Shown: piece by piece, positions 15,491 through 18,492 of the stretch
How positions within the stretch are numbered: position 1 is the stretch's first letter
How the letters are laid out: each line of letters starts with the position of its first letter
From: Pseudomonas shahriarae
Lineage (GTDB): Bacteria > Pseudomonadota > Gammaproteobacteria > Pseudomonadales > Pseudomonadaceae
NCBI RefSeq assembly: GCF_014268455.2
Contig: NZ_CP077085.1
Span: 1,612,001-1,676,000, forward strand
Reading direction: 5' to 3'
DNA length: 64,000 nt
Translations under genes and position numbers: made by a program
The notes under the pieces: model-generated
What the model saw: the letters and a program-made list of their open reading frames with translations, nothing else
Database searches by the model: none
What the model was told of the DNA's origin: nothing

Positions 15491-16369
15491 ATGCCCTGGC
15501 ACGCGTTGCTCGACCGACCTGCCCGACTGCCCGTCCACGCCAACCTGGCCGAGGGCTACAGCGTTTTATTGCAACGCCTGGGGCCGCTCACACCCTTTGA
15601 GTTGGCAACCCAGGGCGCCCGCCTGATGGCCACGCCCGGCCTGGCGTTCCTGGTGGGTTATCAAGCAGCATTGCGCGCGTTATGGCCCAGCGCGCCCCAC
15701 AGCCTGGGCGCCCTGTGTGCGACCGAACAGCGCAGCCTGCGCCCGCTGGACATGCAAACGCGCCTGGACGACCTGCGCCTGAGCGGACGCAAGGATTTCG
15801 TCACCGCCGGCGATGCCGCCGACTGGCTGTTGATCGCCGCCCGCTGCGAGGCCCCCGGCGAAAAGCCGCGCCTGACCCTGGCCGTGGTGCTGGCCGGCGA
15901 GCCCGGCGTGCGTGTGGAGCCCTTGCCGGCGATCCCCTTGATGCCCGATATCAGCCATGGTCGCGTCCACCTCGACCACGCCGCCTGCGAGCGCTTGCCG
16001 GGGGATGGCTGGGACGATTACGTCAAACCCTTCCGCACCCTGGAGGACACCTATGTACTCAGCGCGATGACCGCCTGGCTGCATGGCATCGGCCAGGAAT
16101 GCGACTGGCCCCAGGCCCTGCGTTTGCAGTTGTTGGCATTGCTGGCCGGCTGTGCCGAGGTTGTTCGCCAACCCAGCGCGTCGGCGGCGGGGCATGTGTT
16201 GTTGGGGGGATTGTTTGTGCAGTTCGAGGGGCTGAAGGCGCAGGTCAATCAGGCGATGGGGGCGGGACCGTGGGCCGCGATGTGGCAGCGCGACCAAGCC
16301 GTGCTGGACCTCGCCGCCAGCGCCCGGGCCAAACGCTTGGAAAAAGCCCTGAACCCAGCCCCTCGCTGA
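15491..16369 (+). CDS. Acyl-CoA-dehydrogenase-like protein of unknown function
   Basis: A 292-residue protein. The ATG at 15491 is preferred because AAGGAG sits 6 bases upstream; an earlier ATG at 15467 would contain that site. A segment around residues 105-165 (GRKDFVTAGDAADWLLIAA then PLMPDISHGRVHLD) resembles the middle beta-domain of acyl-CoA dehydrogenases. The protein is shorter than a true dehydrogenase (about 380) and I see no clear catalytic glutamate. It is divergent from olsB (130 bases apart). A role in acyl-chain metabolism is possible. Function not known. Confidence 0.75.
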   Translation: MPWHALLDRPARLPVHANLAEGYSVLLQRLGPLTPFELATQGARLMATPGLAFLVGYQAALRALWPSAPHSLGALCATEQRSLRPLDMQTRLDDLRLSGRKDFVTAGDAADWLLIAARCEAPGEKPRLTLAVVLAGEPGVRVEPLPAIPLMPDISHGRVHLDHAACERLPGDGWDDYVKPFRTLEDTYVLSAMTAWLHGIGQECDWPQALRLQLLALLAGCAEVVRQPSASAAGHVLLGGLFVQFEGLKAQVNQAMGAGPWAAMWQRDQAVLDLAASARAKRLEKALNPAPR

Positions 16370-16385
16370 CTGTGGGATGAGCTTG

Positions 16386-17323
16386 TGTGGGAGCGGGCTT
16401 GCCCGCGATAGCAGGGGGGGCAGGCAATACAGGCGGTGACTGATATACCGCCATCGGGGCATAGGTATCTACACACTCTCTTCTGGGTATGTGTACATAT
16501 CCGTTTTTGCGGTAACGGCGGCTATTGGTTCCGCTCTTACAGCGGGTCACTTTTGGAAAAGAGCCCCAAAAGTAACCAAAAGGGCTCCTGCCCCACCACT
16601 CGGCACCTCGCCTAGGCTCGGTGTGCCCGTCATCCGACATTGATTTGGGGGGCCGCCGCGATGGGCCATCCATGGCCCAGCGCGGCTAACCCGGCGTCCT
16701 GCCGGGTTACCCCCAAATCAATATCGGATGACGGCCAGCGTGGTTTAACGGGGCGCCTAAGATCAAAATCACAAGCAAAGCGAGTCGGCCTGACAGCCGA
16801 CCTGATCGTCGAGATGTACGCATATACCTGTGGGAGCTGGCTTGCCTGCGAAGGCGGTGTATCAGCCAATACATTTATCGACTGATACACCGCCATCGCA
16901 GGCAAGCCAGCTCCCACAGGGGGGAATGCAGCTTCGCGCCCCGGCTTTGCTGTTGCTCTGCTTTTGATCTGGCTTTTGATCTTGATCTTGGGCGCCCCGT
17001 TAAACCACGATGGCCGCAGGCAGGTATTGCGCAGTGGGCACCCCGGCATGGATGCCGGGGTAGCCGCGACACGGCCAGGGATGGCCGATCGCGGCGGGCC
17101 CACGGAGCAATGCCTGACTGCGGGCATGCCGAGCCTAGGCGAGGCACCGAGGGGTGGGGCAAGAGCGTTTTGCTTACTTTGGCGCTTCTCCAAAGTGAGC
17201 CGCTGTAAGAGCGGAACCAATAGCCGCCGTAACCGCAAAAACGGATATGTACACCACCCCAAGAACCACGAAAGAGTTGTGTAGATACCTATGGCCATCG
17301 CGGGCAAGCCCGTTCCCACAGGC
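16386..17323. repeat. Imperfect palindrome of about 0.94 kb filling the intergenic region
   Basis: The two halves are long inverted copies around a centre near 16875. Matches I checked: 16461-16475 with 17278-17292 (15/15), 16493-16545 with 17200-17252 (52/53), 16591-16621 with 17129-17159 (28/31) and 16742-16757 with 16991-17006 (16/16). REP-like sequences mark both ends (GGGAGCGGGCTTGCCCGCGA on the left, TCGCGGGCAAGCCCGTTCCC on the right), and a complete REPIN lies at the centre. No plausible protein is encoded, although open frames run through it. The region from 16370 to 17409 holds nothing else except the promoter of the next gene. Confidence 0.85.
16827..16920. repeat. REPIN at the centre of the large palindrome
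   Basis: Two inverted REP copies (CTGTGGGAGCTGGCTTGCCT at the left and its complement at the right) enclose GGTGTATCAG and CTGATACACC arms. Nearly perfect pairing over about 38 bp with a short loop. Confidence 0.88.
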
Positions 17324-17409
17324 GCTATGTGGTGGTTCCCAGGCCTGTCGCCAAACCGTCATTTATCTGCATTAGGCTCGCGGGCTTGAATGCCCCCGAG
17401 TGCTTGTCC

Positions 17410-18492
17410 ATGGTCAAAGGCCTGCTGTCCGTCGCCTTGCTGCTGTTCACCGCTACCGCACATGCCCAGACCTGGCCGACGAAGGATTGGTCCCAGGGCC
17501 CGCAGTTGGCCGGTCCCGCCGTCAAGGCGCTGGAGGACTATGCCTTCCCGGCGCGCAATGACATCACCCGCGAAGGCATCCGCACCGACGCGCTGCTGGT
17601 GATCCGCGATGGCGCAGTCATTTATGAGCGCTATGCAGCACCGACCACCGCCACCACCCCGCACCTGACCTGGTCCATCAGCAAAAGCCTGATGGCCACC
17701 GTGCTGGGCGTGGCGTACGGCGAAAACCGCTTCAAACTGAGCGACCCGGCCGCACGCTTTTATCCGCCGATGAAGCAGCACCCGACCATTACCCTGGGGC
17801 ACCTGCTCAATTGGGCCTCGGGCCTGGACTGGCAGGAAGACTACGAATACGCGCCGCTGAAATCCTCGGTGGTGGCCATGCTCTACACCCGTGGCCGCGC
17901 TGATATGGCGGAGTTTGCCGCTGATACCAGCCCCTTCGCCGTACCTGGCCAGGCATTCCGCTACTCCAGCGGTGACAGCAATCTATTGTCTGCTGCCCTC
18001 AAGGGCATGCTTGGCCATAAGGCTTATGTCGATTACCCGTGGACCGCGCTGTTCACGCCCTTGGGCATTCGCAGTGCCAGCTGGGAAAGCGACGCCAATG
18101 AAACCTTTGTCGCCTCATCCTATGCCTATATGACTGCCCGCGATCTGGCACGGATTGGCTTGTTGATGGCGCGGGACGGGCGTTGGGGCGAGCGGCAATT
18201 GCTGCCCAAGGCCTGGGTCGATTTCAATCGCCAGCCCCTGGCGCAATACATCGCGGGCCAGGACGAGGCGGTGCCCGGCGGCCACTGGTGGCTCAACCGC
18301 CACGTGCAGGGCGCTGCCCGGCCCTGGCCGGATGCGCCCGACGATGCCTTCGCGGCCCTGGGGCACTGGGGCCAGGCGTTGTATGTGTTGCCCGAGGCAC
18401 AGCTGGTGATCGTGCGCTACGGCGATGACCGCGATGGCAGCTATCGCCACAACGAACTGCTCAAGCGCGTGCTCGCGGCGGTGCAACCATGA
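17410..18492 (+). CDS. Periplasmic serine hydrolase, class C beta-lactamase/esterase family
   Basis: A 360-residue protein. The start at 17410 opens a signal peptide cut after TAHA. The nucleophile box S89-I-S-K92 (in WSISKSLMA) is present. The second motif is YSS (in FRYSSGDS) in place of YxN, and HWG stands for the KTG box near the C-terminus. This set fits 6-aminohexanoate hydrolase/EstB-like enzymes and D-aminopeptidases rather than a resistance beta-lactamase. The stop overlaps the next start by 4 bases (ATGA), so the two proteins are translated together. The substrate is unknown. Confidence 0.87.
   Translation: MVKGLLSVALLLFTATAHAQTWPTKDWSQGPQLAGPAVKALEDYAFPARNDITREGIRTDALLVIRDGAVIYERYAAPTTATTPHLTWSISKSLMATVLGVAYGENRFKLSDPAARFYPPMKQHPTITLGHLLNWASGLDWQEDYEYAPLKSSVVAMLYTRGRADMAEFAADTSPFAVPGQAFRYSSGDSNLLSAALKGMLGHKAYVDYPWTALFTPLGIRSASWESDANETFVASSYAYMTARDLARIGLLMARDGRWGERQLLPKAWVDFNRQPLAQYIAGQDEAVPGGHWWLNRHVQGAARPWPDAPDDAFAALGHWGQALYVLPEAQLVIVRYGDDRDGSYRHNELLKRVLAAVQP

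Follow-up and report, generated by a model that had tools for sequence, protein, structure and literature searches.

A dispersed palindromic element inserted in a Pseudomonas REPIN carries outward pairs of candidate RsmA/CsrA-binding RNAs

The palindrome, its REPIN host and its copies

The window, that is, the whole stretch of 64,000 bp analysed here (positions 1612001-1676000 of the single-contig, 6,054,205-bp genome of Pseudomonas shahriarae), contains an intergenic palindrome at 16386-17323. A preliminary description had presented it as a non-coding element made of long inverted arms around a complete REPIN. The repeat comparison confirmed the palindrome, which comprises four paired blocks with 78-95% identity and, given 19 further loci in the genome, goes far beyond chance. 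The central REPIN was also found as described (Table 1). The span had to be narrowed, as the two outermost stretches are pieces of a host REPIN into which the element proper is inserted. Open frames on the two strands overlap one another here and by eye showed no sign of a gene, in agreement with the non-coding reading, and on this ground a protein-coding reading was discarded. The GC content of the two arms was 58.7% and 61.2%. The Rfam microRNA matches on the central REPIN (MIR533, mir-2331 and mir-667) were far below their gathering scores and were taken as hairpin artefacts.

Table 1. Features of the palindromic element and its host site (window coordinates)
Feature	Position	Strand	Basis or remark
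Host REPIN, left part (first REP and most of the loop)	16386..16456	+	direct repeats with the central REPIN
Putative 6-bp target duplication, left copy CATCGG	16452..16457	+	one base off CATCGC
Mobile palindromic element, ~840 bp	16458..17295	.	ends set by terminal inverted repeats common to other copies
Left terminal inverted repeat GGCATAGGTATCTACACA	16458..16475	+	common to other copies
Outermost inverted block, 19 nt, 95%	16457-16475 / 17278-17296		repeat comparison
Inverted arm block, 70 nt, 93%	16484-16553 / 17192-17261		repeat comparison
Second inverted arm block, 99 nt, 80%	16579-16677 / 17073-17171		repeat comparison
Third inverted arm block, 77 nt, 78%	16700-16776 / 16972-17048		repeat comparison
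Left arm, type A	16484..16776	-	RNA sense = minus strand
Hairpin GGTCACTTTTGG...CCAAAAGTAACC (helix 5)	16545..16577	.	in other copies, insertion-sequence hot spot
TwoAYGGAY RNA (RF01731) in left arm	16618..16743	-	60.4 bits, gathering score 43
Left arm GGA hexaloop AUGGAU	16668..16673	-	
Left arm GGA five-base loop AGGAC	16696..16700	-	
Left arm conserved inner box GGCGCCCCGTTAAACCACG	16739..16757	-	
Complete REPIN at palindrome centre	16827..16920	.	arms 45 nt, 93%
Right arm, type B	16971..17261	+	RNA sense = plus strand
Right arm conserved inner box	16990..17009	+	
TwoAYGGAY RNA core (RF01731) in right arm	17036..17101	+	48.2 bits
Right arm GGA hexaloop AUGGAU	17048..17053	+	
Right arm GGA hexaloop AGGGAU	17077..17082	+	
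Right terminal inverted repeat	17278..17295	-	common to other copies
Host REPIN, right part (second REP)	17296..17322	+	sequence, direct repeats
Putative target duplication, right copy CATCGC	17296..17301	+	

A search of the genome returned 19 other loci aligning over at least 570 bp with 84-94% identity, plus fragments. The same 19 loci also aligned in flipped orientation (70-78% identity), which indicates that the element had its two-fold layout before the copies dispersed. We have taken 36 stretches of the genome with their flanks and re-aligned them; many copies were truncated or split. As in MITEs, the copies are dispersed and lack coding capacity, the latter judged by eye from the frames.

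We have then compared the insertion site with that of relatives. An ortholog of the upstream gene was present in 83 of the 119 genomes of the genus (own genome included); of these, the own locus and 29 from relatives, 30 in all, were selected. The palindrome arms were absent from the orthologous site in all 29 relatives compared, five of which gave short REPIN matches. The two closest relatives (94% protein identity) have the orthologous space without the palindrome. By eye, the second closest and some more distant ones carry a REPIN at that spot, which in one genome (G039, locus L109) is uninterrupted. Copies at seemingly orthologous sites in two species were seen by eye in two cases (L073/L082 and L075/L083, genomes G024 and G097), which suggests possible inheritance of some insertions across species.

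Copies across the genome share a terminal inverted repeat with consensus GGCATAGGTATCTACACAACTCTTT. At 32 of 42 recognised ends, the six bp just outside were exactly GCGATR or its complement, derived from REP. Among 13 two-ended copies of this genome, a 6-bp duplication was perfect in five, carried one mismatch in three (including the studied copy) and was missing in five; four of these last lay between two REPs in opposite orientation and one had a non-REP flank on one side. A pattern search with the terminal repeat gave 27 sites in the genome, against none for a reversed control. Fetched copies accounted for 24 of them, two belonged to a mini-element and one (L338) lay beside a LysR-type gene. 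The mini-element (L337, G000:C1:3521449-3521566) spans 118 bp and consists of little beyond two terminal repeats. No partner transposase bearing the element's ends was detected among these 27 sites or at two odd site pairs of another Pseudomonas genome, G015 (L397 and L406), which adjoin ordinary genes.

Nine of the 36 fetched loci (L041, L043, L046, L047, L048, L052, L060, L062 and L064) were split by insertion sequences of unrelated families, namely two IS481-like kinds, IS110 and an apparently IS3-like one. Their junctions fell within ~55 bp, in and around one arm hairpin or its mirror. An IS481-like element showed the identical junction in L041 and L060. Copies with inserts of 1.3-2.7 kb had raised the idea of cargo genes or of an autonomous version of the element; this was rejected, as the inserts carry transposases of known insertion-sequence families.

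Taken together, the palindrome is almost certainly a mobile, MITE-like element with dispersed copies, which at this site inserted into a REPIN.

A conserved fold in each arm

Both arms match the TwoAYGGAY RNA family (RF01731) above its gathering score (Table 1). The own genome gave at least 54 matches, all above the cut-off, with 150 of 293 candidates scored, and by coordinate comparison all 54 lie inside copies of the palindromic element. None of 14 control genomes gave a match. Under stricter filters, 73 of the 119 genus genomes matched, 63 of them above the cut-off (own genome included), and 46 gave no match under these filters, which lose weak matches. Across the class, matches were found in 24 of 369 genomes (own included; 16 above the cut-off), belonging to 22 of 272 genera. 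The matches listed name many species of the P. fluorescens group, where the preliminary description had placed such blocks, together with P. viridiflava and P. syringae.

For the structural analysis, 128 arms were cut out by an outer motif and not by their loops. The resulting alignment was reduced to 122 arms, then to 49 below 92% identity, and finally, after dropping 19 arms without one of two conserved boxes, to 30 arms from 12 genomes, with a mean column identity of 74%. The motif GCGGTAACGGCGGCTATTGG, already described as conserved, was conserved in the arm alignment. In the 30-arm set the loops read GGCA(N)GGA(T/C)GCC and GCCANGGATGGC, with GGA invariant in both (30/30), and one of the two was often of the five-base AGGAC form. 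Each arm thus has the features of the TwoAYGGAY family, two AYGGAY-like hairpins inside a common stem with covariation. A further hairpin, CCGAGC-CUAG-GCGAGG (window 16606-16621 and 17129-17144), is largely conserved in the arms and could form tandem G-A pairs, which have been reported for TwoAYGGAY (PMC4333381).

The covariation counts use a structure derived from the same 30-arm alignment. With this structure, 97.1% of 1650 cells were paired, against 84.9 ± 0.5 in shuffles, and two-sided changes were seen in 24 of 55 pairs (shuffles 16.4 ± 1.6, reached by none of 500) and in 185 cells (shuffles 55.8 ± 6.9). When the partner was slid by 1-3 columns, 34-45% were paired. Single arms folded with z of -5.9 and -9.1.

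We have used G-U and A-C pairs as an indication of which strand's fold is kept. The two predicted folds each favoured their own strand, with 124 G-U to 10 A-C for the GGA strand and 132 to 48 for the opposite one. Folding itself rewards G-U, hence each strand shows its own excess and only pairs predicted on both strands count. Among the 73 such pairs the GGA strand was favoured by 28 to 2, and among the 39 of them in the core by 27 G-U to 1 A-C (binomial p 2e-7, ignoring relatedness). This supported that the fold of the outward (GGA) strand is the one kept. In the wider 49-arm set, which includes truncated arms, the ratio was 183 to 111, with GGA present in loop 1 of 34 arms and in loop 2 of 40. 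Such an excess could fit RNA and single-stranded DNA hairpins equally. Selection on the fold with fixed GGA loops is, in our assessment, very likely.

We have examined how the arms are arranged by considering neighbouring RF01731 matches within 700 nt as pairs, among the matches listed in the scans of the own genome, the genus and the class. Outward orientation was found in 53 of the 60 pairs among these matches: 20/20 in the own genome, 29/35 in other Pseudomonas genomes and 4/5 in other families, all four coming from three genomes of family f167. The non-outward Pseudomonas pairs among the matches listed were three inward ones, situated between successive outward pairs in G015, and three direct ones. 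Lone arms are common, as in all 20 loci of one genome (G106). Most pairs join two arm types: 14 of 17 in the own genome and 11 of 12 in G024 were A+B, the rest being untyped, and five pairs in four other genomes were B+B.

The identity between A and B arms was the same within and between copies, both in the own genome (0.799 vs 0.798; 14 copies, a value reached or exceeded in 2326 of 5000 permutations) and in G024 (0.776 vs 0.775; 11 copies, 1715/5000). A-A and B-B identities in the own genome were 0.94-0.96. Thus, the arms were not kept alike after the element spread, and selection acts on each arm's own fold.

These results bear on several earlier proposals. The arm search that had been suggested did reveal dispersed copies across Pseudomonas, mostly outward and enriched between convergent genes. 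Chance or a local rearrangement had been reserved for the case that the arms occurred only here or lacked a symmetric partner elsewhere; copies do exist elsewhere, mostly as outward pairs, whereas lone arms are common in G106. Of the proposed selected two-fold symmetry, the outward geometry recurs as counted above, whereas selection on pairing between the arms finds no support, given the equal identities and the many lone arms. Likewise, aligning the arms for compensatory changes revealed them inside each arm's own stems and not between arms. The mismatches between arms, described as scattered, are non-random and reflect the two arm types common to other copies and genomes.

Genomic placement and other lineages

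Gene neighbours were assigned with a simple home-made gene caller, and one of the 36 own loci had no usable flank. Convergent genes flanked 19 of the 35 copies and divergent genes two of them. Of the 145 other neighbour pairs in these loci, 21 were convergent (Fisher p 2.7e-6) and 35 divergent (p 0.018). In four other genomes, 15 of 39 loci lay between convergent genes (10 of 61 other pairs, p 0.018) and 3 between divergent ones (12 of 61, p 0.15). In G024, one element end was often within ~20 bp of a stop codon. Lone arms between tandem genes showed no strand preference (GGA sense in 7, antisense in 5). The placement can be explained by target choice (REPs, terminators) as well as by function. 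No sigma-70-like promoter was found around the studied copy (window 16300-17500), where terminator-like sites numbered four and shuffled sequences gave 1.0 ± 1.1.

Elements with the same core and different ends were found in G015, where 13 of 19 fetched loci (L369-L387) had at least one end reading GGTT(G/C)TTCACGNAATYCC. By eye, these ends lie inside the T-tract of what look like intrinsic terminators. An A/T run adjoined 21 of 22 such ends, and at eight of nine two-ended loci the run was in direct orientation, e.g., TTTTTTGA on both sides. By appearance, this is a terminator-targeting mobile element. With REP as target in the own genome and a terminator T-tract in G015, the ends and the target differ between lineages and the core is kept.

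In family f167, 11 of 12 fetched loci were self-inverted stretches of 577-720 bp. Their GGA hairpins faced outward in nine, inward in one (L203) and were one-sided in one (L204); they also faced outward at one locus of another family (L215). By eye, the sequence of these loci is otherwise unlike that of the Pseudomonas element. At L197 (G394:C1:605300-612000), also from another family, two outward TwoAYGGAY arms lie 3.7 kb apart, which is possibly a longer version of the element.

Proposed role, alternatives and relation to known systems

The high-affinity motif of RsmE is an ANGGAX hexaloop placed directly on a stem, and loops that omit the N are one of the variants with a 10- to 1000-fold lower affinity (PMC4005645). 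The loop consensus of the arms matches this published consensus, free N position included, and the N is omitted in one loop of the studied copy's left arm. Motif matching led the authors of "Annotating RNA motifs in sequences and alignments" (PMC4333381) to propose that TwoAYGGAY binds CsrA. A CsrA-family gene was present in all 12 hosts checked, with three in the own genome. In P. putida KT2440, RNA of three ISPpu8 loci and their intergenic regions co-purified alike with RsmA, RsmE and RsmI; the pull-downs also recovered a "long palindromic region", read as an ISPpu8 insertion site, whose meaning the authors leave open where they report it (PMC7937890). Judging from motif and analogy, binding of the arm RNA by Rsm/CsrA proteins is likely.

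The reading that we favour, with a probability of roughly 55%, is that of a mobile element carrying an RsmA/CsrA-binding RNA as an outward inverted pair of arms, with a possible decoy role and a possible role as 3'-end structure. It builds on the dispersal, the empty sites, the shared ends, the covariation with its strand bias, the invariant loops, the outward pairing and the placement near gene 3' ends. The element is bounded by terminal inverted repeats and in this copy lies in a REP (GCGATR), with a probable duplication of 6 bp of target. From the centre towards its outer end, each arm would yield a structured, multi-branched RNA of ~170-250 nt whose two GGA-loop hairpins would bind RsmA/CsrA-family dimers. 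With the arms inverted, read-through RNA from either flanking gene would include one GGA module of correct sense, located in its distal arm. The read-through RNA from the copies could form a dispersed decoy for Rsm proteins, and the arm RNA might also serve neighbouring genes as an Rsm-binding 3'-end structure. For the studied copy we infer its transcription, the Rsm binding of its RNA and the decoy function, the last being our best guess of a role, put forward tentatively. A wider version appears doubtful to us: palindromic elements spread over Pseudomonas and one or more further gammaproteobacterial families would seed gene 3' ends with outward RsmA/CsrA decoys, their copy number setting the load on the Rsm/Csr pool and lineages exchanging the ends. 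Against our reading we count the lack of strand bias of lone arms, the 46 of 119 genus genomes without matches under filters that lose weak ones, the missing partner transposase, the mixed target duplications, the inward L203, the fit of the G-U excess to single-stranded DNA as well, and the weaker G-U bias and less constant GGA loops of the 49-arm set.

A purely selfish, MITE-like element, in which arm structures of single-stranded DNA or RNA serve transposition and the likeness to RsmA sites is incidental, would account for several of these observations. Its mobility is clear from the empty sites, ends and second lineage, lone arms have no strand bias, many copies are truncated or split, and the G-U excess is compatible with single-stranded DNA hairpins. 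However, it would be odd for a core serving one transposase to stay constant in its GGA while ends and targets differ by lineage. No transposase was found, the loops match the RsmE consensus down to its free N position, and palindromic sites appear in the P. putida Rsm pull-down (PMC7937890). We therefore hold this explanation to be unlikely, though of real weight. The excess between convergent genes, the G024 ends close to stop codons and the terminator-like sites of the studied copy would also suit a bidirectional terminator or 3'-end stabiliser in which Rsm binding plays no part. Termination does not need invariant GGA loops, however, and if the element simply inserts where REPs or terminators already exist, its placement requires no function; Silby et al. 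2009 interpreted this tail-to-tail bias, in other repeats, as the least harmful place (PMC2718517). We thus regard this alternative as improbable. The reading of the preliminary description, a DNA cruciform with selected whole-length symmetry, draws on the long imperfect palindrome and on the outward pairs (53/60 among the matches listed). It was already disfavoured and is highly improbable in view of the lack of arm co-evolution within copies, the abundant lone arms and the covariation, with strand bias, inside each arm.

If the RNA-carrying element is correctly read, the amount of free regulator in a global post-transcriptional circuit would depend on transposable elements. Differences in copy number from strain to strain, illustrated by at least 54 modules here and no match in 46 of 119 genus genomes, would then contribute to the variation of Gac/Rsm traits, among them secondary metabolism and biofilm. 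The element would also join an Rfam RNA of no known function, large unnamed repeats of the P. fluorescens group and the P. putida pull-down of palindromic sites. The parts are each known separately; no literature linking the palindrome, TwoAYGGAY and mobility was found in a search mostly outside subscription papers. A triplex-repeat paper describes a different motif in the part consulted (PMC4666352).

Like REPINs and MITEs, the element is non-coding, bounded by inverted repeats and mobile without a transposase of its own. REPINs, two inverted REPs, measure ~100 bp, and REPs are moved by RAYTs. The element differs from them in its ~840 bp, in its two large, structured arms of non-REP sequence and in using REPs as insertion sites; only its centre and its host site are REPINs. 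With TwoAYGGAY (RF01731, clan CL00106) it shares the outer stem and the two GGA-loop hairpins, both arms scoring above the gathering cut-off, yet that RNA is treated as stand-alone in the account consulted (PMC4333381), whereas the mobile palindrome carries it as an arm, in dispersed copies that mostly pair two such arms facing outward. The sponges RsmX/RsmY/RsmZ and CsrB/CsrC likewise present GGA hairpins in pairs to which RsmA/CsrA dimers can bind (PMC4005645, PMC4333381). These, however, are each a single regulated gene, and the element exists in tens of dispersed mobile copies, with no sigma-70-like promoter found at the studied one. The repeat families R0-R200 of Silby et al. 2009 are also dispersed, intergenic and biased to tail-to-tail positions, and R200 (320 bp, 60.25% GC, 47 copies in SBW25) resembles a single arm in size and GC; unlike the arms, R200 is not described as inverted pairs or as RNA in the sections consulted (PMC2718517). 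The likeness to the ISPpu8 site of KT2440 is close, by analogy: matched by description, both are intergenic long palindromes and insertion-sequence targets, and the RNA of the KT2440 site is bound by RsmA, RsmE and RsmI (PMC7937890), as we propose for the arms.
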